Source of the DNA: Candidatus Omnitrophota bacterium
Lineage (GTDB): Bacteria > Omnitrophota > Gorgyraeia > Tantalellales > Tantalellaceae
Length of the DNA: 34,280 nt
Direction: 5' to 3'
NCBI GenBank assembly: GCA_007135805.1
Contig: SLID01000109.1
Coordinates: 1 to 34,280 of the forward strand
The translations under genes and the position numbers were made by a program. Under the pieces are notes generated by a model. The model did not search any database, had not been told where the DNA came from, and saw only the letters and a list, made by a program, of their open reading frames with translations. Positions 8,043 to 33,907 of the stretch are shown here, in pieces (position 1 is the first letter of the stretch; the number at the start of each line of letters is the position of its first letter).

Positions 8043-8576
8043 CTAGACCGATCTTTGCACCGCGTAAAAAGCCACCAGCTCTTCGTAGGTGAAAAACGGC
8101 GTCGCGGCCGGAAGAAGTATGGGAATACCGTTCTCGTTGAAAAGGCCGATATTGGGATAGTTATCCGGATTGGCGGTGAATATGGTATTGTACCTCAGGT
8201 TAAAGGCCAGGGTAAGGATATCCAGCAAGCGAATATAACTGTGTTCAGTAAGTTCTCTCCCCTCCACCCCGACGAGGAACGCTTTTTCATTTTTACGATA
8301 ATCCAAAAAATCTCTTGAAGTTACGCTTGAACGGTCAGCGATCACGATGGTTTCCGGCTTTTTGTATTCGGCGCCCGACCGTCGGGCTGCTCTCATTCTG
8401 TTATCATTGTCCCGTTCGATAGCCGCTATAAGATCGGCATCGGGAGCGGCTACGAACGAAATACCCAGACTCTCGCAGAAACTTCTTATATCGCTCATCA
8501 GAGGGTTAAGAGCCAGATGCTGATCCCTGCCGGAGGAATAGCCTTTTATCCAGTCAGTACCGAGGGCGATCCTCAC
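8043..8576 (-). other. Shared C-terminal domain (copy 1), unknown function
   Basis: Codes for residues 2524-2700 of the giant protein. It aligns by eye with residues 1546-1716 of the other long protein. Conserved points include GT-[DS]-W-[IL]-KGY, then ALNPL[ML], later YIR-x2-[DE]ILT-x-A near the middle, and a closing YE-[EK]-L-x4-Y-x-VQR. The alternating hydrophobic strands and helices suggest an alpha/beta (Rossmann-like) fold. I cannot assign a family. Confidence 0.7.
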
Positions 8577-11500
8577 CGCGCCGGAACTCCTGGCTTTGTC
8601 CCGGGCTATTTTCAGAGTGTCTGAAAATGTGATAGCTTTTTTCTTCTCCTCGGCAGGCGTGACCCCTGCCGTCATTTGACCCGGCTTTCTATCCCGCACC
8701 GCAGGTGAATCGAACTCATCGTTATCCACGACAACATCGGACATCTCCAGAGGACCCGGTACGGAACCGGCATACTCGCGATGTTTTTTTATGAAGATGT
8801 CTTCCACATAACGGCGAACCTGATCCTCGGTCCTGCCCATTTTTTCTGGATCGCGCTCCATCTGCCGGGCCAAAGAGGTTTGCTCGGTAACATCGAAATA
8901 CACGAACTGGTCCATCATGGGCCTCAGCTTCACTTCCGCGTCGTCCCTTTGAAGGAAAAGTCCTTCCACGATAACTACCGTTCCGTCATCAACATAAATA
9001 TCCTCTTTCCCCTCTCGCTCACCGGTTTCAGACACATAGGGACTGTCTATGGTATAAGTCAGATCTCCGGGACGGTGCAGTTCGTTGAGCCAGAGAGAAA
9101 GACGCTCGTGATCGAACCACCTGTAGTAATCGGAATATTCCCCTTCAAGTCCTTTTTCCCTTTCCTCTTTCTCCACCATGCACCAGTCCCCATGCAATAT
9201 CTCTACTTTACGCCCCAGCCTGTACTTCAGATACGGGGCAAGTTCTCTCTCAACAAAATAACTTTTCCCGGAAGCGTCGAATCCTTCTACACCCACAAAA
9301 AGGCGGCGGCTGCCGGTTCCCTGGGAACCTTTCCACTCTTGTTTTCTTGCCACACTTTCCGCCACCTCCTTTATCATGGCGCGGCGGGAACGTGAAAGAC
9401 CCGCGAAATATTTTTCAAACTCACTTTCCTCACTTCGCCTCTCTTCTGAAGACCGGCGAAAAACCTGATCCTTTACACTAACAGCAGAAACGCTTGTTTT
9501 CCTGAGAACGGTCACACTTGCGGGCGCGTTAAAAAGAACATATCCCGGTAAAGAGCCCTCGACGCTTAACACCGTGTCCCTGTGCCACCGGAGCGCGTCG
9601 CGAAAACGCTCTCCCACCGAAACTTCCTCATAGTTCCCCAGCATACGAAAATATTCCGCGAGACCGGTATCCTCCCCCAGAAGTATCACGGTATCCCCTT
9701 TTCTTAACAATCTGTCATCCAGCCCTGAAATATAATCAAGGGACGATGAATGCGCGAAAAGACCCGACTTATCGTCATATCCCGTTACATAGGACGACCC
9801 TTTCAAGATGAAAGACCTCCGGGGAAACCGGCCGTCTTCTTGCCGAAAAGGCATTTCAAAGGTGCCGTAAGGGGTTACATCCTGCAGCGATGTTTCCAGG
9901 TTATTTCTTACGGCTCGAGCCTCCACACCCACCTTTCCGCTCAACGTGTTAATGAATTCGCGCTGAAGCTCAGCGTGAAACCGCTCGTTGTCCGACCCTC
10001 CTGTCATGCCATGTCTGTAACCCTCTATTTGAAAGAGCGGGACATATTTAGCTGGGAAAAAATCCACCCCGGAGGCGGGATACACGGCGGCGTCCCCAAA
10101 AACGCCCCGCAGAAAAAGAACTCTCAGCATAAGATCATAAAGCTCTACCGCCCTGAGCGTCTCCCTGTATTCATTGTAGCTGATCCCTTTAAAGCCCGGC
10201 TTCCGGGCTGTAAATAAAGCGAACCCTATCCTTTCACGAAGATAACTAAAGGTCCCCAAGGGCGCCCTGGATGATGGCAGCGCCAACTCCTCGATACGTG
10301 ACGAAACCATGTCTACCGCCAGGTCAACCACGCTTTCTTTATCATTTTCGGGAAGCTCTGCCAATACCTCGTTTACCTTCAGCATGTCATTGTCGAACGC
10401 CAATACTCGCGCCGTCACATCTTTGGAAGCGTAACAATGTTCGGATGCATGGCTGTCACATTCTTTTCTGACCGGAGCTAAGGTAAAACGGCGGACCATA
10501 AGATCGAGAACCGCCGTCATAAACCTTGTCATATCTTCCCCCATCCGTCCGGATCCCGGCTGTGGGATTTTCTCGGAAATGCCCTCAAGGTATGTCTTTG
10601 ACGGTTCTTTTACTTCTCCGGCTCTCTCACCCGATAAGGTGCGGAATATCATATCCGGGGCAAGCCCTGTCGTATCGATCACAAGGTCTATCCCGTCGTA
10701 TTCTATACGCTCCATTTCCGCGGTGCGGGGATCATAAGAAAGTTTACCCAACATCTTTTTGGCGCGCTCTTTTACCCTGGTCCGCCTCTTTTCGTCTTCG
10801 GTAAACATTTCCGCGATAATGTCCGGCCCGAATTTTCCGGCAAGATCCGGTACCGTATGATACCCCTCTATTATCACGAGTTTTGTCTCAGGAAAAACGT
10901 TCCGGTCGAGCGCCATCCGGTAATACGAATCATCCGAAAAGTCATCTTCAAAACGCGTTACCTGTCGTTCTTCTATACCAAAGAGCTCCCCGGTAAGGTT
11001 AGCTGATATACTGCTTTTACCCGTCCCCGGCTGGCCGCAAATAAAAACAAGCACCGGCCTGTCATACCCTTCTTCTTCGCGCCGCTGCAACTCCCGCACT
11101 ATCCTTTCCCTTAGCTCGGGCAGCCCTTCGGGCGCCGGCACGATAATATCCCGGCCGCGAAGGGACTGTTCGTCGGTGTCAAGGGCGGATACCTCGCGCG
11201 TTACAGACGTAAAGCGGGGCAAGATAAAACCTGCCATAAACTCGACAAAAAGACCGGCGGCAAAACCTGCCGCGGGAAACCCCGAGTATATACCGAGAAC
11301 GAAAAGGCCCGTAAGCGCGGCTCCCCTGGCGCGCAGAACTTGATCTCCCCCGCCCCTTTCAAGGTCTGCGTCCAGAAAGACCAACACATCCCCCTCTTTT
11401 ATCCGGGTAAATTCAAGAACTCTTTCCTTATCCGAAAGCTCTCCGATATTTATGCGGCTTCCGTTTATTATGACTTCAGTCGTCCTGACATTAGAGTAGT

Positions 11501-14500
11501 AATTGTTCATAATGTCGAGAACAGAACTCGTCTCCGGGACCTTTACATCCTTTCCGTTCACAGAGACTTCCACATTGTTACTTGGAGTCGGAACAAACGC
11601 TTCAGGCAAAAGTTCCAATGGTTCGTCCTTGAGAAGCTCGTACCATTCCAATATCTCTTCCGCCTCTTTCTTCATGTAGACCTTTATGAGGCCGAGAGCC
11701 GTTACAATGAAATTTTCGGCCTCTTCGGGCCCCAAGGTGTCAAGGATCCCCCTTACTATGGCTTCGGGAGAAAAATTAAAAGCAAGGAACGCGTCTACCA
11801 GAAGACCCGGCGATATCTCATGCCCGTATTCTACATTGTCTATGTCTATTATGGAAACCGCATACCCCCTGGATGTCTTACGTATCACTACGTTATCCAT
11901 TTTAGGGTCATGAAAATACAGTTGTTTATCAAAAGTCTTCCAGTACCGGATATAAGCTCCCACCGACATCCTTTCCCGCGTTATCTCATCCGGCATTTCA
12001 ATAGCGGAATGAACGTATCCCTCAGAGAATATTATCCTTTGCTTACCGTCGTTGTGGGTATGACCATACAATCCACCCGCCGGGAGATGCAGACTGTAAT
12101 CGGTTTCCCTGGCTTTTATGTCTATATCCATGAGCGTTTCAGCGTACTCCATGGTATAATCGTATCCGCTGTCAGACTTTTTGACGTCTTCTTTCACCAG
12201 TTTCAGCAGAAAATTGAAAGGATAATTTCTGTCATAAAGCTCCATAGCTACCGAATAAACCTTTTTAAAACCGCCTTCTCCTATACAACGTATATGTACT
12301 CCCTTCACATCGTCCCGTGACAGATCATCCCGCATGAATATGTTGGCAAAGGCGTCATTTATGACCCTGTGGTCTTTTATTAGAGCTTCAAGTACCTCCA
12401 TATCCCGTTCACTGATATCATCCCGGTCATACCTTACCTCAAGAGCGGCCTGACGGCGCTCCTGAACCGCTTCCTCGATCTCCTCGATGGCCTTGAGCAT
12501 TTTCCTCAGATTGCGACGCAGCAACCTGCGCAGCGGCCCCTGCCGGGCGGAAGCGTCACGAAGGATGTCGCTTATTGAACGAAGTTCAGAGGTGACTTTA
12601 TTTTCCCGCCCAACGCTTTCGAGATAAGCCTCTATAAGCTCCCGTATGGCCGTCATATTAGGTTCCCACCTGACATTTACGACCACTATCCCCAGGATAC
12701 GCATAATGTCGCGTAAACAAACATCAAGCCGTCCCGCGTTGTAACTCCTTTCAGCCCGCATAAGTATGTCCGCGACATCGCTCCTCTCTCCCCGCAAAAC
12801 CGAAAGGCGCAGTTTCCTTCCCGGTGAGCCGTGACCATCCGCTCCGGTATCGGGCGCAAGCAGCCGATGGGCCGCAGCTGTCCCCGGCGCGAAACCGGGA
12901 GCGACTATCCCTAGCCGGCTTATCTCATCCCACCATTCGCCCGACAACGCAGAGAGATAACCGTAAATATACATAAGACCCTCCCATATCCCGGTATCCG
13001 CAGGCCCGGGGATAGGGTTTTCGGTATCCCCCAACGCGGCAGGACCCTTTATCCTGTCCCCGCGGCACATATCGTCCGGATAAGCCGGGACCGCAGCGTA
13101 GTAATCTCGGGCCGGATATACCCCGCGAAAAAGAAAATCTTGGGAGAGGAACGGTTTACTAGTATCTTTGCGGATGAACTGCGGAAGCTGTGTATCCACC
13201 ACCCACCACATGCCGTTAATATAAACTTCCAGAACCACATGCGCGGAAGCGGGAGTCCTGCCCCTCATTACTTCCCGGGAAAGATCATGAGGTATTTTTA
13301 TCATTCGCTCCCGTGCCTTAATGCCCGTTTTTGCCGCGAGCCGGTTCCTGATGAAATCTGTCGCGTCCGCGCACTGCCCCCTTTTTCGGGGATCATATAT
13401 CATGGCAGCCTCCCGCGCGTACCGGACAAGCACCTCAGGGGTCACGCGTAACAGGGAAGCTTCATCGGAGTCTTTGCTCTCATCCAGAGACCTGTCGCGG
13501 ACAATTCGATAGTTATTTTTCCAGCGGGTAGTGGGAATCCATGTAAAACCGCCGTCTACCGAGTACATGAAGGTGAACTCTCCCTCGAAACCTTCGGGCA
13601 AACGTACACCGAAACGGTATTTCCCGGGACGTATTTCTTCTACACGCTTCATATCCACTACCATCCATATAGGTTCGCCGCTGTCATCAGTACCATATTT
13701 TGTGTCGTGAAAATGGACCCGGCCTTTTATCTGCTGAGGGTTCCAGCTGACTTCTTCCGCCGCGTGATCGGCGTCGGCAAAAACCGTAAAACCGATCTGG
13801 GTAGAATCATCCAACGCTAAAATAGACACATTGCTCTCGGGAAAAATATCAACAGCTCCATGCCGGATCACAGGGATGAACCTTCTTTCCCTAAGGGGGA
13901 ACTCGGCCTCAAACACCGCGCCGGTCAAAGGCAGCTGTTTGTTGCTTGCCTCTATAGACCCCTTCATGCGATCCATGATCTCGTACAGAAAAGCAAGTCC
14001 GAGACCGGTACCCTCGCTTCGCTGTTCCGTCCGCCCCGCTGAGGTAATGTTGTATTTAAAAAGTTCCTGCCGGGAACTTTTTTCTTTAGCGAGAAGCCGA
14101 AGATCTATACCCTTTCCATTGTCGGAAACTCTCAGCCTGAATTTACCTTCGGATTCCACGTAACCATACTCCACCCGGATCTCTGTGACGCCTCTTTCCT
14201 TGAGCGCGTTCCGTACAAGTTCCGATACCAGATGTCGTACATACATCTCATCGAACGAGACTTTTTGCAGTTTCTCATCCGCCGGAGAGACCTCGACGCG
14301 AATATCCCTGGGGCCTATATGTTCTTTTCCGACCTTGTCTACCGTCTCGTGTATAACCTTGTTGATATCCCCGGTCACGGTCTCTGAAATACCTCTCAGG
14401 AAACGACTTGAGAACACGAGGAGTTCGTCAATACGTTTGAAACTTTCTTCCACTATGGCAACGGCCTGTTTTGCCTTTTCTTCGCCGAACTCCCGCTCCA

Positions 14501-16145
14501 TCCTGGGACCAAGATCAGAAAGCATACTGTCCCGCCTTGTCCAGAAACGAAGCCGTACCTTCTCCAGATAGCGCCGCGTCTCGTACTTGTAATCGAAAAG
14601 CTCGCCTATCCTTTTCCTGCGTCTAGCGAGATACTTTATCATCCCATGCACCACGCCTACCAGGCTGTCATATTCATCCTGTATAGCGTTCAACAATTCC
14701 AGGCGCACACTGTCATCGGCACCCTCTGACAGCGAACGGTAAAGACTGATATTCAGCCGGCTTAACTGCTGACTGATACCCAATTCGGAAAGCGGCGGAT
14801 GGTTCAGCATTATGCGTATCGCGCAATCCGCTTCGACCTGCATTTTAAAAAGCATATCTTCCACGGTAGGCACGAGGTCGGTACTATGAAGTGTCCCCAG
14901 ATAAGCTGGGCGGATCTGACGAGGGTCCGGCGCCTCACCTTTGACCTCGGAGAGCCCGGTTTTTTCCGCGGGACCTCCGCCTTCAGAGATCTCGTACATG
15001 GAAAGATACAACCCTCCCCTGGCCTGGGATATGTTCCTCGGCTCTTGCCATAACGGTGTAAGATCACTGAAGACGTGAGAAGCGCCATATTTTTGCCGGG
15101 TCTGTTCACTCGTAAAAAGCACCGCTATACGGGCGTCCGGCGGAAGTTCCCGGGCCTTTTTCTGCAGGAGACGCCTGAAATCCTGGTCATTTTTCGAACC
15201 GGCGGGAAAAGGGTAAAAAACATACACAACATCTACTTCCGACCAGCTCGTATTGAACGCGTCGGTATAAGGCAAAAACTCGACCTTTGCCCCATCGACA
15301 AGGTCCGCATCTTCGGCCTTTTCAAATACCCTGAGGGCGGCTTCGCTTACTTCACCGTCTTTTTCGCATGCCGTAACACGCATATCCGCCAAATTGGACG
15401 CCCATAGTGAAACCCTAAGGTCTCCGGCCCCAAGATCGAGCAGGTGTTTTCCGGAAAGATCACCAAGCTCTTCTTCCAACGTGGAAAAAATATCTTCAAG
15501 AACAAAGTCCGGTGTCATCATATGCACCGCCCCGTCAAGCGCTCTGCCAAGCTCAAACGCGTTCTCATCAATAAAATTCTCCACACGTTCCCTTAGGGAT
15601 ATCTCCCGCGCGGCCACTATCTCGACCTTCACATATACTTTTGAACCGTCAGACAGGGACACTTCCCAGTCAGGCGAAGTGTCGATTCGGGGGTCGGTGT
15701 AATATCGGTAATTGAAAGCGTGTACATCGTTACGGTAAACCGGCACATTGTATACCCTGCCTTCCTGAACGTAACCGCTGTTTTCTATATCCGCGCCCGC
15801 GAGAAAAGGATCCTTGGCCTTGATCAGTTCCATGTTAGCGGGCGAAATATGTTTTATCATCCCGTCCTTGATCCGAGCTACATGGTTGTTGATACTTCCC
15901 GAGGATATATCCATGTTCATGTATTTGCCTATAAGCCCGCTTATGTATCTAAACGCGGCCGAATGGCGAAAGAGATCCGATGAAAAGTCACTCACACCTT
16001 CGACGGGACGGAATGGCGACGGGACGGACAAAGCGTCCGCTACATCGGCCAAAACCTTGTCGGATCCGGAAAATACAAGACTGCTCGCAAGCAGGATGGC
16101 CACAACCTTGCCCCCCATGCCGCGCTTTGTATTATAGATAAACAT
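8043..16145 (-). CDS. Giant 2700-residue modular protein with signal-like N-terminus, enzyme and kinase-like domains and a shared C-terminal domain
   Basis: Order of parts by eye: signal-like hydrophobic segment (12-33, VLA-DVA); N-terminal domain with SLSDGSKVYVKVEI (163-176); methyltransferase-like fold with LLDLGAGD (235-242); GHKL/histidine-kinase ATPase with N-box HLVSELVRNALK (638-649), DNGKG (675-679) and GTGLGLA (712-718); beta-rich segment (about 760-880); transglutaminase-like domain with Cys925, His969, Asp984; WWDEISRLGIVAPGF linker (1071-1085); protein-kinase-like domain with GEGGFKKVYSV (1289-1299), Lys1315, HDPKMDN (1412-1418) and DIDN (1434-1437); ThiS/ubiquitin-like fold (1524-1597); hydrophobic segment (1608-1643); P-loop GQPGTGKS (1704-1711); unknown region (1870-2215); second P-loop GFDASGKS (2288-2295) resembling uridine-kinase folds; C-terminal domain 2524-2700 shared with the 1716-residue protein at 28757-33907. 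The reading frame is intact throughout. No Shine-Dalgarno precedes the ATG. Overall function is unknown. Confidence 0.85.
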   Translation of the reverse strand: MFIYNTKRGMGGKVVAILLASSLVFSGSDKVLADVADALSVPSPFRPVEGVSDFSSDLFRHSAAFRYISGLIGKYMNMDISSGSINNHVARIKDGMIKHISPANMELIKAKDPFLAGADIENSGYVQEGRVYNVPVYRNDVHAFNYRYYTDPRIDTSPDWEVSLSDGSKVYVKVEIVAAREISLRERVENFIDENAFELGRALDGAVHMMTPDFVLEDIFSTLEEELGDLSGKHLLDLGAGDLRVSLWASNLADMRVTACEKDGEVSEAALRVFEKAEDADLVDGAKVEFLPYTDAFNTSWSEVDVVYVFYPFPAGSKNDQDFRRLLQKKARELPPDARIAVLFTSEQTRQKYGASHVFSDLTPLWQEPRNISQARGGLYLSMYEISEGGGPAEKTGLSEVKGEAPDPRQIRPAYLGTLHSTDLVPTVEDMLFKMQVEADCAIRIMLNHPPLSELGISQQLSRLNISLYRSLSEGADDSVRLELLNAIQDEYDSLVGVVHGMIKYLARRRKRIGELFDYKYETRRYLEKVRLRFWTRRDSMLSDLGPRMEREFGEEKAKQAVAIVEESFKRIDELLVFSSRFLRGISETVTGDINKVIHETVDKVGKEHIGPRDIRVEVSPADEKLQKVSFDEMYVRHLVSELVRNALKERGVTEIRVEYGYVESEGKFRLRVSDNGKGIDLRLLAKEKSSRQELFKYNITSAGRTEQRSEGTGLGLAFLYEIMDRMKGSIEASNKQLPLTGAVFEAEFPLRERRFIPVIRHGAVDIFPESNVSILALDDSTQIGFTVFADADHAAEEVSWNPQQIKGRVHFHDTKYGTDDSGEPIWMVVDMKRVEEIRPGKYRFGVRLPEGFEGEFTFMYSVDGGFTWIPTTRWKNNYRIVRDRSLDESKDSDEASLLRVTPEVLVRYAREAAMIYDPRKRGQCADATDFIRNRLAAKTGIKARERMIKIPHDLSREVMRGRTPASAHVVLEVYINGMWWVVDTQLPQFIRKDTSKPFLSQDFLFRGVYPARDYYAAVPAYPDDMCRGDRIKGPAALGDTENPIPGPADTGIWEGLMYIYGYLSALSGEWWDEISRLGIVAPGFAPGTAAAHRLLAPDTGADGHGSPGRKLRLSVLRGERSDVADILMRAERSYNAGRLDVCLRDIMRILGIVVVNVRWEPNMTAIRELIEAYLESVGRENKVTSELRSISDILRDASARQGPLRRLLRRNLRKMLKAIEEIEEAVQERRQAALEVRYDRDDISERDMEVLEALIKDHRVINDAFANIFMRDDLSRDDVKGVHIRCIGEGGFKKVYSVAMELYDRNYPFNFLLKLVKEDVKKSDSGYDYTMEYAETLMDIDIKARETDYSLHLPAGGLYGHTHNDGKQRIIFSEGYVHSAIEMPDEITRERMSVGAYIRYWKTFDKQLYFHDPKMDNVVIRKTSRGYAVSIIDIDNVEYGHEISPGLLVDAFLAFNFSPEAIVRGILDTLGPEEAENFIVTALGLIKVYMKKEAEEILEWYELLKDEPLELLPEAFVPTPSNNVEVSVNGKDVKVPETSSVLDIMNNYYSNVRTTEVIINGSRINIGELSDKERVLEFTRIKEGDVLVFLDADLERGGGDQVLRARGAALTGLFVLGIYSGFPAAGFAAGLFVEFMAGFILPRFTSVTREVSALDTDEQSLRGRDIIVPAPEGLPELRERIVRELQRREEEGYDRPVLVFICGQPGTGKSSISANLTGELFGIEERQVTRFEDDFSDDSYYRMALDRNVFPETKLVIIEGYHTVPDLAGKFGPDIIAEMFTEDEKRRTRVKERAKKMLGKLSYDPRTAEMERIEYDGIDLVIDTTGLAPDMIFRTLSGERAGEVKEPSKTYLEGISEKIPQPGSGRMGEDMTRFMTAVLDLMVRRFTLAPVRKECDSHASEHCYASKDVTARVLAFDNDMLKVNEVLAELPENDKESVVDLAVDMVSSRIEELALPSSRAPLGTFSYLRERIGFALFTARKPGFKGISYNEYRETLRAVELYDLMLRVLFLRGVFGDAAVYPASGVDFFPAKYVPLFQIEGYRHGMTGGSDNERFHAELQREFINTLSGKVGVEARAVRNNLETSLQDVTPYGTFEMPFRQEDGRFPRRSFILKGSSYVTGYDDKSGLFAHSSSLDYISGLDDRLLRKGDTVILLGEDTGLAEYFRMLGNYEEVSVGERFRDALRWHRDTVLSVEGSLPGYVLFNAPASVTVLRKTSVSAVSVKDQVFRRSSEERRSEESEFEKYFAGLSRSRRAMIKEVAESVARKQEWKGSQGTGSRRLFVGVEGFDASGKSYFVERELAPYLKYRLGRKVEILHGDWCMVEKEEREKGLEGEYSDYYRWFDHERLSLWLNELHRPGDLTYTIDSPYVSETGEREGKEDIYVDDGTVVIVEGLFLQRDDAEVKLRPMMDQFVYFDVTEQTSLARQMERDPEKMGRTEDQVRRYVEDIFIKKHREYAGSVPGPLEMSDVVVDNDEFDSPAVRDRKPGQMTAGVTPAEEKKKAITFSDTLKIARDKARSSGAVRIALGTDWIKGYSSGRDQHLALNPLMSDIRSFCESLGISFVAAPDADLIAAIERDNDNRMRAARRSGAEYKKPETIVIADRSSVTSRDFLDYRKNEKAFLVGVEGRELTEHSYIRLLDILTLAFNLRYNTIFTANPDNYPNIGLFNENGIPILLPAATPFFTYEELVAFYAVQRSV

Positions 16146-16500: not shown

Positions 16501-18123
16501 GTGAGTGATTACTTATTCGACGCCATAATTTTTGACATGGACGGAGTTGTCACAAAAACCGCTCTTGTACACGCCCGGGCATGGAAAAAAACTTTCGACG
16601 AATACATGCGTATTCGGGAAAAAAAGTATGGTGAAACTTTCAAAGAATTCACCCATGAAGGGGATTATCTTCCCTATGTCGATGGCAAGCCCCGATATGA
16701 AGGAGTCAAAAGTTTTCTGGAATCCCGGGGCATCTCTATCCCCTACGGAGAAAATACAGACAGTGGCGACAAAGAGACTGTCTGCGGCTTGGGGAATAGG
16801 AAAAATGATCTTTTCAAGGAAGTTCTGGAAGATGAAGGCGTAGAACGATATGACCCAATGGTCAAGTTCATAAAGGAGGTCAGGGAGAAAGGCGTAAAAG
16901 TGGGAATAGCTTCCTCCTCCAAAAATTCCGAACTTATACTGAAAAGAGCCGGACTTCTGGACCTTTTTGAGACCAGGGTGGACGGTGTAGTATCTGAAAA
17001 GTTAGGACTTAAAGGCAAACCCGAACCTGATATTTTTGTCACCGCCGCCAGGAACGTTGGTGCCGAACCCGCCAAAACGATCGTAGTGGAGGATGCCAAT
17101 TCCGGCGTCGCGGCAGGCCGTAACGGCGGTTTCGGTCTTGTTCTGGGCCTGGCCCGCGAAGACAATGTCGATGCCCTTCTGTCCAACGGCGCTGACATAG
17201 TCATGAAAGACCTTTCCCACATGGAAATAGACTGGCTTCAAAAATGGTTCCTGAGAAAACCTCATCATCTCATGCGGGAGTGGCAGACCATAGACAACCC
17301 ATCGGACATCCAGCTCTGGGAATTCAAAAAAGATATCCCCATATTCCTCAACCCGCTATACACCAGGACAGGCAAAGAAATATTCGCGAACAGTAAGGAA
17401 ACTATCTTCTTCCTGGATTACGACGGAACACTCACCCCCATCGTCCAACACCCCCGGGACGCGGTAGTGTCCGCCGAGATGAGAGACACGGTGAAAAAGC
17501 TGGCCGAAGAATGCCGCGTTTTCATAGTAAGTGGGCGGTTCAGAGAAGATGTCCAGGACCTTTTGGGCATAAAGGAACTGCTTTACGCGGGAAGCCACGG
17601 CTTTGACATAAAAGGCGAAGGCCTTTCCATGGTGCATCCCAAAGCTGAAGAGGTGATCCCTGACGTGGAAAAGGTTCTCCAACAGCTGGATTCCCGTCTC
17701 AAGGACATAGAAGGCATCTTTATCGAGAAGAAAAAGTTCAGTGTCGCGATCCATTATCGCATGGTTGACGAAGAAAAGTACCTCGACCGGATAGAACAGG
17801 AAGTCGAAAATGCCCTTACCGAAGCCGGATCACTTCGGCTGATGCGCGGAAAAAAGGTATTCGAACTTCTTCCCGACATAGAGTGGGACAAAGGCAAAGC
17901 GATCCGGTGGATACTGGAAGCCATCGATGTCGGCTGGAAAGACGCCAACATCATATACATAGGCGATGACGTGACAGATGAGTTCGCTTTCCGCATGATC
18001 CGGACAAGAGGCGCGGGAATCCTTGTTTCAGAAGAGAAAAGACCATCAGCGGCGAGTTTTTATCTCCGTGACCCGGGGGAGGTGAGAGAACTTTTTGAAA
18101 AGTTCATCAAAGAGACCGCCTGA
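16501..18123 (+). CDS. Beta-phosphoglucomutase-like / trehalose-6-phosphate phosphatase fusion (OtsB1-like)
   Basis: 540 residues with two HAD-superfamily halves. Residues 1-245 resemble beta-phosphoglucomutase: nucleophile motif DMDGVV (12-17), GIASSSKN (motif II), KGKPEPDIF and VVEDANSGV (motifs III/IV). Residues 297-540 are a trehalose-6-phosphate phosphatase: DYDGTLTP (306-313), FIVSGR, and GDDVTDE (about 488-494). The first half would interconvert beta-glucose-1-phosphate and glucose-6-phosphate; the second would dephosphorylate trehalose-6-phosphate. The start is GTG at 16501 behind AAAGGGGTGAT. The same two domains followed by GH65 form mycobacterial OtsB1 as one chain (from memory). 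Here the GH65 part is the next, overlapping gene. No T6P synthase gene is in the window. Confidence 0.88.
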   Translation: MSDYLFDAIIFDMDGVVTKTALVHARAWKKTFDEYMRIREKKYGETFKEFTHEGDYLPYVDGKPRYEGVKSFLESRGISIPYGENTDSGDKETVCGLGNRKNDLFKEVLEDEGVERYDPMVKFIKEVREKGVKVGIASSSKNSELILKRAGLLDLFETRVDGVVSEKLGLKGKPEPDIFVTAARNVGAEPAKTIVVEDANSGVAAGRNGGFGLVLGLAREDNVDALLSNGADIVMKDLSHMEIDWLQKWFLRKPHHLMREWQTIDNPSDIQLWEFKKDIPIFLNPLYTRTGKEIFANSKETIFFLDYDGTLTPIVQHPRDAVVSAEMRDTVKKLAEECRVFIVSGRFREDVQDLLGIKELLYAGSHGFDIKGEGLSMVHPKAEEVIPDVEKVLQQLDSRLKDIEGIFIEKKKFSVAIHYRMVDEEKYLDRIEQEVENALTEAGSLRLMRGKKVFELLPDIEWDKGKAIRWILEAIDVGWKDANIIYIGDDVTDEFAFRMIRTRGAGILVSEEKRPSAASFYLRDPGEVRELFEKFIKETA

Positions 18124-20548
18124 CACATCCGGAGAAAAACTCAGCGGCTGGAAAATCATCTATGACGGGTTCGACCCTTCCACTGAAAAACTTCGAGAGT
18201 CCTTGTGTACTCTTGGCAACGGCTATATGGGCATAAGAGGCGCCGCTACTGAGTCCTCGGCTTCTGAAGTCCATTATCCCGGCACTTACATCGCCGGCCT
18301 TTATAACACGCTGGGAACTAAGGTTGCCGGCAGGAACATATTGAATGAAGATCTTGTCAATTGCCCTAACTGTCTCCTCCTTTCATTCAGGGCCAATAAA
18401 AAAAAATGGAACGAATCCGAAGAGATCCAATACCTTAGCTACCGCCAGGAACTTGACCTTAAAAAAGGCATCCTGATAAAAACCAGGCGTATACGGGACG
18501 AAGCGGGGCTTATATCCGATATAAGTGAGAAAAGAATAGTCCACATGGAACATCCTCACCTTGTGGTATTGCTCTATGAAATAACCCCTGTCAACTATTC
18601 CGGCACACTACTGGTAAGATCCGGCATAGACGGCTCCGTGGAAAACCTGGGAGTAGAACGCTATAAGGCCCTCAGATCCAAACACCTGAAGACGCTTTCC
18701 TCGGGCATCACCCCCGGCGGCATCATGCACCTCACAGCCCGGACAAATTCCTCCGGCATAGATATAAGCACCGCCGCGCGGCTTAGAATTATCAAAAATG
18801 AAAAATACAAAAAACCGGACATTATAACGGTCAAACAAAAAGAAAAGATCGGCTGTGAATTTTCCATTAGAGCGCGAAAAGGGCTGACCGTGACACTTGA
18901 AAAGACCTGCGCTGTTTTCACGTCTCGTGACAATATCTCCGGTTCGGTCCAGGAAAACGCCCTCTCAAACGCCGGGAAAGCCCCTTCTTTCAAAAAACTT
19001 GAGAATTCCCAGGCGTCAGTGTGGAAAAACCTTTGGGAAAAATGTGATGTCCGGGTGTCCGGGGATATCTCGGCGCAAACCATACTGCGTTTCCATATAT
19101 TCCACCTGCTACAGTCGGCCAGCCCCAACAATACGCTTATTGACGCGGGGATCGCCGCCAGAGGCCTGCACGGAGAATCCTACCGGGGGCACGTTTTCTG
19201 GGACGAGTTATTCGTGCTTCCCTTTATCAGCACACATCTTGATAAGACCGGTGAGGCCCTTCTTCTGTACCGGTACCGGCGTCTCAATGAAGCCAGAAAA
19301 TACGCCAGATCCGCCGGATACCGGGGAGCTATGTTCCCCTGGCAAAGCGGGTCTTCCGGAAAGGAAGAGACCCAAAGCGTACACCTCAACCCGATGTCAG
19401 GCAAGTGGGGACCCGACCTTAGCAGAAACCAGCGCCATGTATCTTTCGCGATAGCCTACAACACCTGGAGACACTGGACCATAACGGGTGACAGATCGTT
19501 TTTAGACAGGTACGGCGCGGAACTTCTGCTTTCTATAGCCAAGTTCGGAGCAAGTCTGTGCGAATTCGACGAAAAAGACGGAAGATACCATACCGATGGG
19601 CTTATGGGCCCGGATGAATTCCATGAAAAAATGCCTTTCTCAAGCAAAGGCGGACTCAAAGACAACGCTTACAGCAATTTGCTTATCGTATGGACCCTCT
19701 TAAGGGCCATTGACACCCTTGATCTCCTTTCCAAAAGCCGTCACCGAGAACTCAAGAAAAAAATAGGCATAACGAACAGCGATATTGAAAAGTGGAAAGA
19801 CATTTCCCGGAAAATGAACATTATCATCAGCAATGACGGCATCATAAGCCAGTTCGACGGGTATTTCGACCTTGAGGAACTTGATTGGAAATATTACCGC
19901 GAGAAATACGGGGACATCCACCGGATGGACAGGGTATTGAAAGCCGAGGGCCGATCACCCGACGACTACAAAGTGGCTAAACAAGCGGATGTTCTGATGC
20001 TTTTCTACCTTTTCCCGTTCACCGAGGTAAAAACCCTGTTCGAAAGGCTGGGCTATCGATTGACAAAAAGAATGCTGAGGAAAAATTACCATTACTACGA
20101 AACCAGGACCAGCCACGGATCTACTCTCAGCAAGGTGGTCCACTGCCACGTATCCCATCTTCTCGGCATGACAAGAGTTTCCTCAAGATGGTACGACGAG
20201 GTACTGGCGGCTGATATACACGACATACAGGGGGGCACAACCCCCGAAGGTATCCATGCCGGCATAATGGGCGGATCTCTTGACATTGCGGTGAGAGCCT
20301 TCGCCGGCCTGCATATTGGGGAACAGGCCATAAAGATAAACCCATCCCTTCCCTCCTGCTGGAAAAGCTTGGCCTTCCGTCTTAAGACAAACGGAAATTG
20401 GATACAAGCGCGAGTCGCTCGTGACAAGATCTCGATAGGGGTGGAAAAACAAAAAAAAGCGGAACAGGTCCGTTTTGATATCAAAGGAAAACAAATGTTC
20501 ATCTGGCCGGGACAGAAAATAACCGTAAATCTACAAGAAACATCCTGA
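18095..20548 (+). CDS. Glycoside hydrolase family 65 enzyme (trehalose/kojibiose phosphorylase-like)
   Basis: 817 residues, full length for GH65. An N-terminal beta-sandwich (about 20-270) with ESLCTLGNGYMGIRG is followed by the (alpha/alpha)6 barrel. The catalytic acid is Glu508 in GLMGPDEFHE. The phosphorylase-type GGTTPEGIHAGIMGGSLDI segment is near 705-725. The usual phosphate-binding HDSSLS motif reads HGSTLS here, so hydrolase or another acceptor specificity remains possible. The start is TTG at 18095 behind GGAGGTGA with 9 nt spacing, overlapping the upstream gene by 29 nt in a different frame. With the preceding beta-PGM domain it would make a short route from trehalose to glucose-6-phosphate. 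The enzyme is cytosolic with no signal peptide. Confidence 0.88.
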   Translation: MKSSSKRPPDTSGEKLSGWKIIYDGFDPSTEKLRESLCTLGNGYMGIRGAATESSASEVHYPGTYIAGLYNTLGTKVAGRNILNEDLVNCPNCLLLSFRANKKKWNESEEIQYLSYRQELDLKKGILIKTRRIRDEAGLISDISEKRIVHMEHPHLVVLLYEITPVNYSGTLLVRSGIDGSVENLGVERYKALRSKHLKTLSSGITPGGIMHLTARTNSSGIDISTAARLRIIKNEKYKKPDIITVKQKEKIGCEFSIRARKGLTVTLEKTCAVFTSRDNISGSVQENALSNAGKAPSFKKLENSQASVWKNLWEKCDVRVSGDISAQTILRFHIFHLLQSASPNNTLIDAGIAARGLHGESYRGHVFWDELFVLPFISTHLDKTGEALLLYRYRRLNEARKYARSAGYRGAMFPWQSGSSGKEETQSVHLNPMSGKWGPDLSRNQRHVSFAIAYNTWRHWTITGDRSFLDRYGAELLLSIAKFGASLCEFDEKDGRYHTDGLMGPDEFHEKMPFSSKGGLKDNAYSNLLIVWTLLRAIDTLDLLSKSRHRELKKKIGITNSDIEKWKDISRKMNIIISNDGIISQFDGYFDLEELDWKYYREKYGDIHRMDRVLKAEGRSPDDYKVAKQADVLMLFYLFPFTEVKTLFERLGYRLTKRMLRKNYHYYETRTSHGSTLSKVVHCHVSHLLGMTRVSSRWYDEVLAADIHDIQGGTTPEGIHAGIMGGSLDIAVRAFAGLHIGEQAIKINPSLPSCWKSLAFRLKTNGNWIQARVARDKISIGVEKQKKAEQVRFDIKGKQMFIWPGQKITVNLQETS

Positions 20549-28756: not shown

Positions 28757-29272
28757 TTAAGCGAAACGCTGCACATCGTATATATGTTTCAGCTTTTCAT
28801 ATTCCATGGGGCTGGCGTACGGCACAATGATATATACCGGATTATCTCTTGCGGGAGGTATTATTTTCATGTTCTCGTTATCAAGCTCAGGAGTGACCCC
28901 TATTGAAAGTTTCATGGCAATAGTCAATATCTCCATTATCCGGATATAGCAGCTAAAGGACATTTCACTGCTGTCGATCCCGATAACAGTATAATTGTTA
29001 TCCCGCGCCATTTTTTCGAAACAGCTGTCCAATCCTCTCTCTACATCCGCCCCGACCAGCATTATCGCCTTAGCATCGGGAGCCATCCCTCTCTCTATTT
29101 TCTCCCTGGCGATAAGCCCCGGAAGATCTTCGTCAGCAGCCAATATGAAAGGGATGTTCCTTCTGCCGCAATAATTGGCTATGGCTGTTAAAAGAGGGTT
29201 CAGTGCTTCATATTGAAGATGCGCCCCCTTTTCATATCCTTTTAACCAGCTCGTTCCGACTGCTATGATGTT
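28757..29272 (-). other. Shared C-terminal domain (copy 2), unknown function
   Basis: Codes for residues 1546-1716. Matches to copy 1 (8043-8576) include GTSWLKGY against GTDWIKGY, EALNPLL against LALNPLM, CYIRIMEILTIAMKL against SYIRLLDILTLAFNL, and the C-terminal YDVQRFA against YAVQRSV. Both copies sit at the very end of their protein. Confidence 0.7.
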
Positions 29273-32200
29273 GGAGCTTGCCAATTCACCGGCAGGACCT
29301 GTGATCACGGAAAATTTCGCCTGTATGTATCCCATCGTTGTCCTGAAATCTTGAGCGTGCGCAACTTCCCTGTCAGAACTTATGGCCTTTTCCTCGGCGG
29401 GAAAAGGTAGAGATTTCGTGTGCTCCCCGCCGGAGATCTGTGTACCTGCGCCGGGAATGCTCGGCTCCGTCTCTACCCTTTCTTTGTCGTGCTCAGCGTC
29501 GCCGCGACCTTTATCTAAAACCTTCGCCGCCTCTGTCGATGCCGGTAATTTCAAGACAAACTTTGTTCCCTTGCCCTCTTTTGAGATCACTTCAATACTT
29601 CCGCCATGATCGCGGACAGTGTGCCAGGACTCTGCCGAGCCCAATCCTGTCCCGTCCGGTTTGGTGGTGAAATTCAATTCGGCAAAACCGGGCCTGCCGT
29701 CACGCCCTGGCTCCAAAACCCGCGGGCTTATGCCGGGACCGTTGTCAGCTATGGTAACGACTGCGTCACTGCCTTCTCTTTCCAAAGAAATGACGATCCG
29801 GTTCTCCTCTGTCTCCCCGGACGCCTGTTCCGCGTTCTTAAGCATATTGGAAATGGAGTTAAGTAAGGATATCTTATCTATATCAACTACTATCGTCTCG
29901 TCTTGGCTTGTCTTCTTGAAAAAAGCAACATTTGAGTTAGAATGAAAAATCTTATCGTTAATTTCCTCGATCAGAACTGCAAGGTCATATTCCTGTTTTT
30001 CCGTTTCACCCCGCAAAAATCTCAACCTGTTTTCAAGTATCGCTGTTATCGCCGAGATATATCCGGCCGCTTCCTCCAGGATCTCGTCCACTTCAGCACT
30101 GTCTTCCGCTGTAAAAAGTTTCTTTTTATCCTGCCATTCAGACAATACAGGGGAAAGAAGTTGGGCCATCCCACGGCAATCCTCTAGTAGTGTCCTGAGT
30201 TCAGACTCCCATTTCATAGCCTGCCCCGTTGTCGGGTCTTTTTCGCGGCTTGTCTTACTAACATCCTTTATCAACGCGTCTATCCTGTCGGAAAACCTGA
30301 CGCTTTCGCGGAATATCGGCCCGGTATCGACCCTTGCTCCGGTGATAATATCAACCACTCCCATCCCACCGACTATCCCCTGAAGATATCCCGCCGGGTC
30401 AGTAAATGCCCCGTGGCTTAAACTCCTTACAGCTATGGCCGCCCTTTCACCAAATTCGCGATCATAGGGTTTCTCGGCAGTAACAACGCTCATCATGCTT
30501 TCCGCGCCCTGCCCTGCGGTCTCTCTTTCCCACAAATACCGTACCGATATCTTACCGAATCCGGCTTCTTCAAGATTTTTCTTCCACTCATCGTGCGACC
30601 ACACCCTTTGATCGGGAGATACGAGCGAGGTTCTCCCCGGCACCACTATCCCGTCTTTATTCAAAATATATGGATGCGCGTTGCTCACAAGAAAAAGTAC
30701 GTTCCCGCCCGGGGACAGAATCTCGAAACAATCCTTCAAGGCCCTCTTTCTGGACTTCTCGGACAAAAATTCCCAGAAAAGACCCGCGGTCACGGCACCG
30801 AAACCTTTCCCAACCCTTTTTATTCCGGTCACATCGCTTTCCAGAAATATCACTTCATGGCCTCTCTCACGGGAGAGTTTTCGGGCCATATCTATGGCTG
30901 CGGGATTTTTATCTATCCCGGTGATCTCTAAAGCTCCGGCACCTCGGGCCCAGCACGCCATCGGCCCAAGTTGTGTTCCAAGGTCCAGGACTCTTTTTTC
31001 TCTTACAATGTCCTCATATTCGCGGAGCTTGTCCTCATATTCCTTTATGGTAGAATCAAAAATGCCCTCCGCCACTATATTTTCCAGCATTTGCCGGGAT
31101 AAAGAAGGGCTTTTTCTTTTACCCTGATCATGGCCGGGATAACCGGGGATCCTCCCGTATATCCTCATATCCGGGCCCTTGTCCGGAGACATGAATATAT
31201 GTTCTCCCAAAGAAGACATCCCCGGTATACCAGGCAGGGAATATCCCCTGGGAATAATACCTAGACGCTGCTGGTCCTCCCACCATTTAAGCATAAGCCC
31301 CGAAACATCTCGGCAAAACGAAAAGACAGCGACAGCGCCTGAAAACAAAACTTTCATCACTCCTTTGCCGCGAAAAGCGCTCATATGGCCTTTCGCGGAG
31401 CCAGCTGGAGAGATCTTCCCTCTATCCGTCTGCATTTCCATTCCCGACAAGCGTCCGGGAGCATGGATCCCGGCAACTTCCCGAAACTCAATTAGATCAG
31501 AGTCAGATTGCCGGGAAGAAGATATCTTATCAGCAATAACTTCTATCTCCACAAGCCATTCATCACGACAGACACCGGCATGAAGATACACAGCAGGAGG
31601 CGCGTGAGGGAACGATGCCTCAACTATGGCCCTCACTTTAAGATAATCTTCGGGATTCTTTACATATATCCTGATCTGTGTAACATCTTTAAGCCCGGCT
31701 CCTCCCTGTTCAAGAACAAGAGATATATTCTCGATTGTGGTCAAGGTCTGTTTTTCAACATCACCTTTGTGAACTACATGAGGGCCTTTTACGGAAGCTG
31801 TACCGGAAATATATATCCTTGTATGGCCATCTCTGATAACGGCCATTCCCCTTGAAAAAAGCGGCGGTTTTGATGTTCTGTGGACACCTTTTTTAAGCAC
31901 ATTTTCCTTGTCATACTCGTGGGCATTCGTGGACTCGGGGTTTTCCAGGGGCTTGAATTGTACCGGAACCTCCTCTCCCCGGATGGCGAGACATTCCAGA
32001 AGCATCGATCCGTCTGACATCCCTATACCAGTGGATGCGGGATACCACCCTCTTCCCCTCATCCCCTGTTCGGTAAAGAAAACGTCCCTTCCGTCATTGA
32101 GCCTCTGATACCTTTCGCTGAAATAAAGATAATTACCCGTTATATCGTTCTGGTAAAGCCATATTCTTTTAACGTTTTCCGCGAAATCAAATCCGGCCCC

Positions 32201-33907
32201 TTCAAGCAAGATCCTGGCCTCACGGAAAGCTCTCTGGATCTGCTTATAGGGATCTCGATCCCACCACTTGGGCCTGATACCGGCTAAGTAACCCTCTTTG
32301 ACACCCCTCTTTTCAACAACGGTAAGATTTTTGTTTTTCCGGATTATCTTGGCCTCAGGATCGGTCTCCGCCACTGTCTCTACCGCTATCGCTCCCCCCA
32401 GCGGGGGCTGGTACACAAAACTGGTGGCCGGGATAGTCCCGTAATATGATTCCAATCTTTTCCTGATCTCGTTTTCCCGTTGGCGGCTTCCCACAAAAAC
32501 GACCTGTTTCACGACCTGATCTTTTTGCATACCGCTATCCCCCAGCAATCGATCCATCTCTGCGTCCGTAATATCGTAGGAGCTTAAAGTAAAGCTGCCC
32601 CTTACCGTCCCGTCATTGCTCCGGATAGATGTCGCCCCTTCCGGGGAAGTTCTCTCCGGAGAAGGACGCGTTTTATGATAAACAGATTCGCGGAAAGTTC
32701 CATCCGCCACCTTGCGTCTGAAAGTGTATGTAAAAGGGTTCTTGTAACCGTCGAGCTGGGCCCTGGCCATATCTTCATCATTGAACTCGATGACCCTGAC
32801 TTTGGATATTAGTAGACTTTCAAGGTATGTGGGATCATTTTTCTCGAAAAGATCCTTGTGCCGTTCGGCTGTCTTTTTTGTCACCAACACTACATCGACA
32901 TATTCCAGAGGTACTGTTTCGGCGATAAAAGGATAATTGAACCCAATGTCTTCCACTTTCTCTATTCCGGCCGCGCCTCGCCGGGCCATCTCATTAAAAA
33001 CGCGGCTATTTATACCTACTATCACCGCGTCATCTTCGTTGAAATGTCCATATATGTTAGCTTCGTCCAGGTTACCAAGATAACTTCTTGCGTTTGAGGC
33101 TTCACGCCCGGGGTCATACATATATCCCGAGTGCCTTAAGAAAGAAAATCCCCCCCTCCGGCCTTCCTTTCCGGGCTTTATACCCATGAATAACATTCCC
33201 TCTCCGGCACGTTTTTCATGTAACCGGATACCCTTGCCTGAGGCGGATGTTACCCTCTTTTTCCGGGCCTCAAGGGACATCTCCCGCCGGAACACCTTCT
33301 CCCCTACGGATGATATATAATGCGCGTGGGGGGAAAGCAAATTCTCGATGTCTACTATGATCTTTGTCCCATCCGGAAGTTTAAACTCATTAGCCGGGGC
33401 TTTGCTATCCGTGTCAACGCTTATGGTTACCCTGAACGCGGTCTCTCCATAAAGATCAAAAGATACAAGAAAAGAAGTGACTTCTCCTTTTTCCCTGATC
33501 TCTTCAATACTGCTTACGCCTAACTCTTCAAACAGTCCACTTTCATCACCGGCTGCGGTAAAAATATGTTTTTTAACGAGATCCCGGAGTATAGCTGACG
33601 GCCTTTCAAGATTATACTCCCTGGCAAATCCCAGCATCTCTCCTGCAAGATAGATGATATCCAGCAACACCCACCTTTTTCGAAGCTCATCTCTCATATC
33701 ATCTGTAACAATATCGAAAGTCCCGTCAGGCATTTGGATTATTCTGCAAGGAGGATTACTAGCGAGAGGAGGAGCAAGTGTCGCCCTTTCTTGAACCCTG
33801 TAAGTGTGTAAAGCTCTGCCGTAAGCAATATCGTTAGCCATAAAAAGGCAAACTACCGCGACCGATACAGCCTTGACAAGAAAACTGTGTAGGGTTCGTA
33901 CACGCAT
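28757..33907 (-). CDS. 1716-residue modular protein with chorismatase/RidA-like, methyltransferase, GHKL and shared C-terminal domains
   Basis: Order by eye: signal-like segment (8-31, AYG-RAL); N-terminal domain with RIIQMPDGTF (55-64) and FKLPDGTKIIVDIENL (175-190); unassigned region (200-400); chorismatase/FkbO-like region (about 465-790) with YFSERYQRL, GWYPASTGIGM (620-630) and a RidA-type end (RIYISGTASV at 697-706, VCRDEWLVEIEV at 779-790); WWEDQQRLGIIPRGY linker (875-889); class I methyltransferase with VLDLGTQLG (973-981); GHKL ATPase with N-box NSISNMLKNAEQ (1350-1361), DNGPGIS (1388-1394) and GTGLGSA (1419-1425); C-terminal domain 1546-1716 shared with the 2700-residue protein. A possible DHp-like helix includes SLSHG (1162-1166). 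No Shine-Dalgarno precedes the ATG. The frame is intact. The overall role is unknown. Confidence 0.85.
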   Translation of the reverse strand: MRVRTLHSFLVKAVSVAVVCLFMANDIAYGRALHTYRVQERATLAPPLASNPPCRIIQMPDGTFDIVTDDMRDELRKRWVLLDIIYLAGEMLGFAREYNLERPSAILRDLVKKHIFTAAGDESGLFEELGVSSIEEIREKGEVTSFLVSFDLYGETAFRVTISVDTDSKAPANEFKLPDGTKIIVDIENLLSPHAHYISSVGEKVFRREMSLEARKKRVTSASGKGIRLHEKRAGEGMLFMGIKPGKEGRRGGFSFLRHSGYMYDPGREASNARSYLGNLDEANIYGHFNEDDAVIVGINSRVFNEMARRGAAGIEKVEDIGFNYPFIAETVPLEYVDVVLVTKKTAERHKDLFEKNDPTYLESLLISKVRVIEFNDEDMARAQLDGYKNPFTYTFRRKVADGTFRESVYHKTRPSPERTSPEGATSIRSNDGTVRGSFTLSSYDITDAEMDRLLGDSGMQKDQVVKQVVFVGSRQRENEIRKRLESYYGTIPATSFVYQPPLGGAIAVETVAETDPEAKIIRKNKNLTVVEKRGVKEGYLAGIRPKWWDRDPYKQIQRAFREARILLEGAGFDFAENVKRIWLYQNDITGNYLYFSERYQRLNDGRDVFFTEQGMRGRGWYPASTGIGMSDGSMLLECLAIRGEEVPVQFKPLENPESTNAHEYDKENVLKKGVHRTSKPPLFSRGMAVIRDGHTRIYISGTASVKGPHVVHKGDVEKQTLTTIENISLVLEQGGAGLKDVTQIRIYVKNPEDYLKVRAIVEASFPHAPPAVYLHAGVCRDEWLVEIEVIADKISSSRQSDSDLIEFREVAGIHAPGRLSGMEMQTDRGKISPAGSAKGHMSAFRGKGVMKVLFSGAVAVFSFCRDVSGLMLKWWEDQQRLGIIPRGYSLPGIPGMSSLGEHIFMSPDKGPDMRIYGRIPGYPGHDQGKRKSPSLSRQMLENIVAEGIFDSTIKEYEDKLREYEDIVREKRVLDLGTQLGPMACWARGAGALEITGIDKNPAAIDMARKLSRERGHEVIFLESDVTGIKRVGKGFGAVTAGLFWEFLSEKSRKRALKDCFEILSPGGNVLFLVSNAHPYILNKDGIVVPGRTSLVSPDQRVWSHDEWKKNLEEAGFGKISVRYLWERETAGQGAESMMSVVTAEKPYDREFGERAAIAVRSLSHGAFTDPAGYLQGIVGGMGVVDIITGARVDTGPIFRESVRFSDRIDALIKDVSKTSREKDPTTGQAMKWESELRTLLEDCRGMAQLLSPVLSEWQDKKKLFTAEDSAEVDEILEEAAGYISAITAILENRLRFLRGETEKQEYDLAVLIEEINDKIFHSNSNVAFFKKTSQDETIVVDIDKISLLNSISNMLKNAEQASGETEENRIVISLEREGSDAVVTIADNGPGISPRVLEPGRDGRPGFAELNFTTKPDGTGLGSAESWHTVRDHGGSIEVISKEGKGTKFVLKLPASTEAAKVLDKGRGDAEHDKERVETEPSIPGAGTQISGGEHTKSLPFPAEEKAISSDREVAHAQDFRTTMGYIQAKFSVITGPAGELASSNIIAVGTSWLKGYEKGAHLQYEALNPLLTAIANYCGRRNIPFILAADEDLPGLIAREKIERGMAPDAKAIMLVGADVERGLDSCFEKMARDNNYTVIGIDSSEMSFSCYIRIMEILTIAMKLSIGVTPELDNENMKIIPPARDNPVYIIVPYASPMEYEKLKHIYDVQRFA

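Follow-up and report, generated by a model that had tools for sequence, protein, structure and literature searches.

Giant open reading frames of Omnitrophota are poorly understood, and those of one class are described, in the passages of PMC10066038 that concern them, as mostly poorly conserved with few annotated domains. Omnitrophota giant proteins are widely noted and are suspected of a role in predation or symbiosis, but low similarity and scarce domains left them unexplained (PMC10066038). A passage of the Lipocone paper (PMC12419801) also notes gigantic proteins of Omnitrophota that combine parts of kinases, methylases and peptidases. In the type IX secretion system (T9SS) of Bacteroidota, a C-terminal domain (CTD) carries the export signal of the cargo, and removal of two C-terminal residues from the CTD of RgpB led to retention of the protein in the periplasm and blocked its export (PMC11285876). 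No paper describing the domain reported below was found in our literature search; bioRxiv, including West-Roberts et al. 2023 (cited in PMC12057145), was outside its scope.

The window, by which we mean the whole stretch of DNA analyzed, is one complete contig of 34,280 bases from a genome of 1.63 Mb that is about 90% complete and divided over 137 contigs. It contains two giant reading frames, both on the minus strand, encoding P0001 (2700 residues) and P0002 (1716 residues). Both proteins end in one undescribed folded domain, here called the C-domain. In a group of uncultured Omnitrophota, the same domain forms the end of dozens of giant proteins that look secreted and are unrelated in other respects. 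The features of the two genes are as follows.

8043–16145, minus strand: giant gene 1, 2700 residues, with signal-like segment, N-domain, HATPase_c, P-loop, uridine-kinase-like part and C-domain
15576–16145, minus strand: N-terminal module of giant protein 1, with hydrophobic signal-like segment, LSVPS motif and N-domain (profile match E 6.1e-44)
13890–14252, minus strand: passenger HATPase_c, a histidine-kinase-type ATPase (protein 1, residues 632–752; PF02518, E 1.1e-15)
8787–9311, minus strand: uridine-kinase-like passenger (protein 1, residues 2279–2453; NF005807, E 1.6e-12, below the equivalog cut-off)
8046–8654, minus strand: C-domain of giant protein 1 (P0001 residues 2498–2700, ending ...YAVQRSV; by homology, AlphaFold2 pLDDT 88.9)
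28757–33907, minus strand: giant gene 2, 1716 residues, with signal-like segment, N-domain, chorismatase/RidA-like part, methyltransferase, HATPase_c and C-domain
33338–33907, minus strand: N-terminal module of giant protein 2, with hydrophobic signal-like segment, LAPPL motif and N-domain (profile match E 1.1e-68)
31535–32179, minus strand: passenger resembling chorismatase FkbO/Hyg5 and RidA (protein 2, residues 577–791; TIGR04444, E 6.1e-29, below cut-off; PF01042, E 8.4e-19)
30704–30991, minus strand: passenger SAM methyltransferase (protein 2, residues 973–1068; PF13649, E 1.7e-11)
29540–29878, minus strand: passenger HATPase_c (protein 2, residues 1344–1456; PF02518, E 1.1e-15)
28760–29371, minus strand: C-domain of giant protein 2 (P0002 residues 1513–1716, ending ...YDVQRFA; by homology, AlphaFold2 pLDDT 86.7)

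Residues 2526–2698 of P0001 and 1548–1714 of P0002 share 32% identity (BLASTP E 1.3e-19), and the pair scores 205 with BLOSUM62, whereas none of 1000 shuffles scored above 71. The full-length alignment of the two protein ends in the preliminary description is borne out by these values, but the folded unit begins about 30 residues earlier than was proposed there. This unit comprises approximately 200 residues, opens with a helix (residues 1514–1533 in P0002 and 2499–2518 in P0001) and is followed directly by the stop codon in both proteins. Elsewhere, the two proteins have in common an element of about 55 residues, in which a hydrophobic stretch precedes WW[DE]xxxRLGI[IV] (E 7e-5; window 12837–12989 and 31169–31348, both minus strand), which was rejected as a general part of the protein class on the basis of its absence from the other giant proteins fetched. 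By eye, giant protein 1 also shows, within window 11650–13270 (minus strand), a transglutaminase-like C-H-D stretch at about residues 960–1040 and a kinase-like HDxxxxN stretch at about residues 1330–1500, neither of which was reported by Pfam. Between the two giant genes (16501–20548, plus strand), a fusion resembling β-phosphoglucomutase and trehalose-phosphatase is followed by a GH65-type phosphorylase, as judged by eye, forming a disaccharide metabolism pair.

In the window's genome, a single-sequence search identified nine copies of the C-domain and profile searches 13–14. Of 384 Omnitrophota genomes scanned, 41 carry it, and all but one of these 41 fall in the window's own class, spanning families f1, f30, f8, f16, f37 and f50 in the numbering of the search tool; the single genome from outside the class carries 6% contamination and a partial match. 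All of the seven nearest loci from a public genome collection carry the label Candidatus Omnitrophota, one of them being Ca. Aadella gelida. A scan of 84,980 species genomes with the strongest motif of the subfamily, which detects close subfamily members only, returned nothing but Omnitrophota, and no relatives were found in phage, plasmid and viral-contig collections. Genes for C-domain proteins can occur in tandem, with four consecutive copies in one genome (L086, G005:C24) and a pair in another (L091, G076:C12) flanked by further giant secreted-like proteins. Two frames of the window's genome, L114 (G000:C40, ending -AVAA) and L159 (G000:C70:3550–3954, ending -VFSA), carry very divergent C-terminal domains, which suggests a superfamily broader than our profile captures. 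Two contigs of that genome (L112, G000:C91 and L079, G000:C98) overlap inside one giant gene with identical contig-end sequence, indicating that the gene was split by assembly, and C29 and C70 may represent another such case.

The position of the domain is strict. All 64 copies in a curated set of non-identical, 3′-complete sequences lie at the extreme C-terminus, with zero to five residues past the profile end. The final residue of 97 3′-complete reading frames is alanine in 85, valine in seven and threonine in two, compared with a control in which alanine is last in 8 of 80 neighboring reading frames; as paralogs are not independent, the counts are given as a pattern, with no P value attached. 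Three odd tails of 27–55 residues occur among the 97, and two of these appear to be a copy with masked sequence (L156) and the out-of-class fragment (L155). The distance from the conserved Y1710 (P0002 numbering) to the protein end is exactly 6, 10 or 11 residues, each length class mostly ending in alanine, and the lengths of the final helix lie one turn apart. Since the last residue stays the same although its place along the helix shifts by one turn, we infer from the sequences that the free C-terminus itself is under selection.

Conservation within the domain is limited to a few positions, namely P1696 and Y1710 (60/64 each), W1554 (58/62), T1552 (55/64), Y1654 (48/64) and D1645 (46/64), in addition to the terminal alanine. 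Most of the points earlier called invariant hold only in the window pair or its subfamily: the KGY of GT-x-W-x-KGY is PG in most of the 64 copies, and neither ALNPL nor the final arginine is family-wide. The C-domain contains no conserved cysteine, histidine or serine hinting at a protease. The protein ends lack the motif, hydrophobic helix and basic tail of PEP-CTERM or LPXTG proteins and close instead with a helix ending in -FA, -YA or -AA, without a C-terminal membrane-type segment. No T9SS tail family was present among the Pfam and NCBIfam matches listed for these proteins. Small nonpolar C-termini of the -LQAA or -LIAA type resemble Tsp/Prc and ssrA-type signals, and the -AA, -SA or -FA end could accordingly be a processing or degradation tag read by a PDZ-type protease (Prc/CtpA, S41) or a ClpX-like unfoldase. 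One S41 peptidase is encoded in the window's genome, a finding of little weight given that 10 of 14 control genomes also have S41 peptidases. A degron does not need a conserved fold of about 200 residues, and this explanation, which also leaves the coupling to the N-domain described below unaccounted for, is quite improbable.

AlphaFold2 was run with nine homologs for both window C-domains and gave confident models, with pLDDT of 86.7 and 88.9 and pTM of 0.84 and 0.87, respectively for P0002 and P0001. Both show the same order of elements, a helix, alternating strands and helices, and a long final helix. A Foldseek search of the models against the PDB and viral models returned no match at E ≤ 0.001, a PDB profile search nothing below E 0.37, and no Pfam or NCBIfam model scored above its curated cut-off. 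A Pfam scan of the 64 copies gave scattered matches only (best E 0.003), with no family in more than four members. The domain was originally listed as unassigned, and it stays so after these searches, neither predicted structure having given a confident hit to a named family. The best of the weak Foldseek matches are Rossmann-like (flavodoxin, LacI-type regulators and sugar-binding periplasmic proteins) and are not significant.

The model places T1552, W1554, D1645 and P1696 where strands 1, 4 and 5 end, along the C-terminal edge of the sheet. This edge is the usual ligand site in Rossmann-like folds, and the placement of conserved residues there leaves room for a ligand role. The C-domain could therefore be a Rossmann-like sensor in which a small molecule bound at the sheet edge controls the enzymes in front, a proposal in line with the sugar-binding proteins, regulators and flavodoxin among the weak matches. 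We consider it unlikely, as it leaves the terminal alanine, the exclusive C-terminal position and the matched N-domain unexplained, the passengers share no activity that such a sensor could control and the fold matches fall short of significance. The (βα)5-like order of elements, together with HATPase_c in both window proteins, would also suit a divergent response-regulator receiver domain fused to histidine-kinase-like parts. However, the end of strand 3 has no phospho-acceptor aspartate (a mixture of serine, glycine and aspartate, the last in 11 of 64), strand 5 no conserved lysine, most of the relatives scanned no kinase, and Response_reg is not among the families listed for the 64 copies. 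Membership in the receiver family was rejected on the absence of these catalytic columns, and we give this origin hardly any weight.

At the opposite end, a hydrophobic, signal-peptide-like segment is present in at least 67 of 77 complete reading frames by a hydropathy rule, and some of the frames without one may be regions cut short. This segment is often followed by an L-A-x-P-S-like motif, and many segments look AxA-like by eye. The N-domain that comes after it is common to many C-domain proteins and was found in 22 of the 384 Omnitrophota genomes, all 22 being among the 41 with a C-domain. In the window's genome, the only complete N-domain frame lacking a recognized C-domain is L114, whose N-domain match is weak and whose divergent C-terminal stretch closes with -VAA; four more N-domain frames with no recognized C-domain run off their contigs. 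Among 67 complete proteins, similarity in the N-terminal stretch (residues 28–210) correlates with similarity in the C-domain over all pairs (r 0.66), over the 2146 pairs without BLAST similarity between passengers (r 0.61; reached in 0 of 2000 permutations) and among pairs from the same genome (r 0.68). Whole-gene duplication with fast divergence of the passenger could account for part of this co-variation.

Co-variation and genome co-occurrence of this kind are also expected of physical partners, and the C-domain might be a structural cap that closes, stabilizes or oligomerizes very long proteins by contact with the N-domain of the same or another chain, or that marks full-length translation. 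Conserved residues of the C-domain are found on helices α4 and α5, through which CheY-like folds usually interact. A cap does not need a free terminal alanine, however, and proteins of about 740–1000 residues keep the domain as strictly as those of 6000, which makes a purely structural role an improbable one.

The central regions of these proteins vary widely. Pfam matches identified histidine-kinase ATPase, methyltransferase, chorismatase/RidA and uridine kinase passengers in P0001 and P0002, and radical SAM, glycosyltransferase, malic enzyme, MutS domain V, Asp/Glu racemase, PTS EIIA, M20 peptidase, DegT aminotransferase, HEAT-repeat and GNAT passengers in their relatives. In five genera of two families, a C-domain gene is found immediately upstream of purB, and the encoded proteins have 740, 878, 1004 (incomplete), 3866 and 4540 residues. 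Most or all of the passenger differs among these proteins: the two shortest, from G047 and G016, have only the C-domain in common with the others, and the 3866- and 4540-residue proteins also have passenger parts in common. This locus is direct evidence of passenger exchange. No linked partner gene of the C-domain genes was found, the recurrent neighbors being purB and other giant genes. One recurrent neighbor is a giant-protein start with IHIQDAHxNYEAQ (L094:5013–6500; also L026, L029, L046, L061, L091 and L098), and L096 begins with a start of the same type and ends in a C-domain.

The exclusive C-terminal position of all 64 copies and the terminal-alanine rule strongly support a common role, as had been proposed from the strict end position, and of the sorting, docking or sensing suggested at that time, sorting is favored here by inference. 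Our leading explanation, which we put forward tentatively and at slightly under even chances, is that the C-domain serves modular secreted giant proteins as a folded signal (cargo) domain at the C-terminus, read by a trans-acting receptor. Such proteins would start with a Sec-type signal and a small N-domain matched to the C-domain, and would continue with an exchangeable multi-enzyme passenger and the α/β C-domain, whose free C-terminus, usually -Ala-COOH on the final helix, would be presented to the receptor. Once across the inner membrane, the protein would be routed, exported, anchored or processed through this receptor, as in the case of a T9SS CTD. Secretion itself and the receptor are the weakest steps of this explanation: secretion is suggested by the hydrophobic N-terminus only, and recognition of the C-terminus by a receptor is presumed from its conservation. 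Against a signal domain, many passengers resemble ATP- or SAM-dependent cytosolic enzymes, which would be odd for export, and the conserved T1552, W1554, D1645 and P1696 are residues that a pure tag need not keep. The window's genome, at about 90% completeness, gave no match to secretin (PF00263; matched in 6 of 14 control genomes); it gave none to SprA (PF14349) either, a result that carries no information because none of the 14 control genomes matched. In a wider and rather doubtful form of the proposal, an undescribed Omnitrophota targeting system would use the matched end domains to move giant enzyme assemblies of any kind to the cell surface or into a partner cell, and the passenger enzymes would have been swapped between fixed N- and C-ends during evolution.

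A shared, detectable C-domain offers a handle that marks this protein class across species, and it predicts export and recognition of the protein end. It also allows small reporter fusions to replace 300-kDa proteins as test objects. If the signal-domain explanation is true, the C-domain would join the small number of folded C-terminal signals known so far, bringing a new fold, and would be a starting point in the search for the machinery by which an uncultured phylum secretes proteins.

The published giant proteins of Omnitrophota resemble those described here in phylum and in a mosaic of histidine kinase parts, methylases, papain-like peptidases and polysaccharide enzymes, whereas the passages on them in PMC10066038 and PMC12419801 make no mention of a common C-terminal domain, of a rule for the terminal residue or of a coupling of the two ends. 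With Rossmann-like and flavodoxin-like folds, including type 1 periplasmic binding proteins, LacI-type regulators, flavodoxin and type II dehydroquinase, the C-domain shares the β-α alternation and conserved residues at the C-terminal ends of strands, but Foldseek E-values are 5.6e-3 or worse, query-normalized TM scores are mostly 0.2–0.35 and no sequence motif is held in common. Membership in the T9SS CTD family was rejected on the basis of the alternating α/β fold of the AlphaFold2 models. Nevertheless, the T9SS CTD, as in RgpB, is likewise a folded domain at the extreme C-terminus of unrelated signal-carrying proteins, with many cargoes per genome and C-terminal residues that matter. It is an Ig-like, seven-stranded β-sandwich of 70–100 residues that tolerates C-terminal extension, whereas the Omnitrophota C-domain is an α/β domain of about 200 residues that ends in a helix and conserves the end residue itself.
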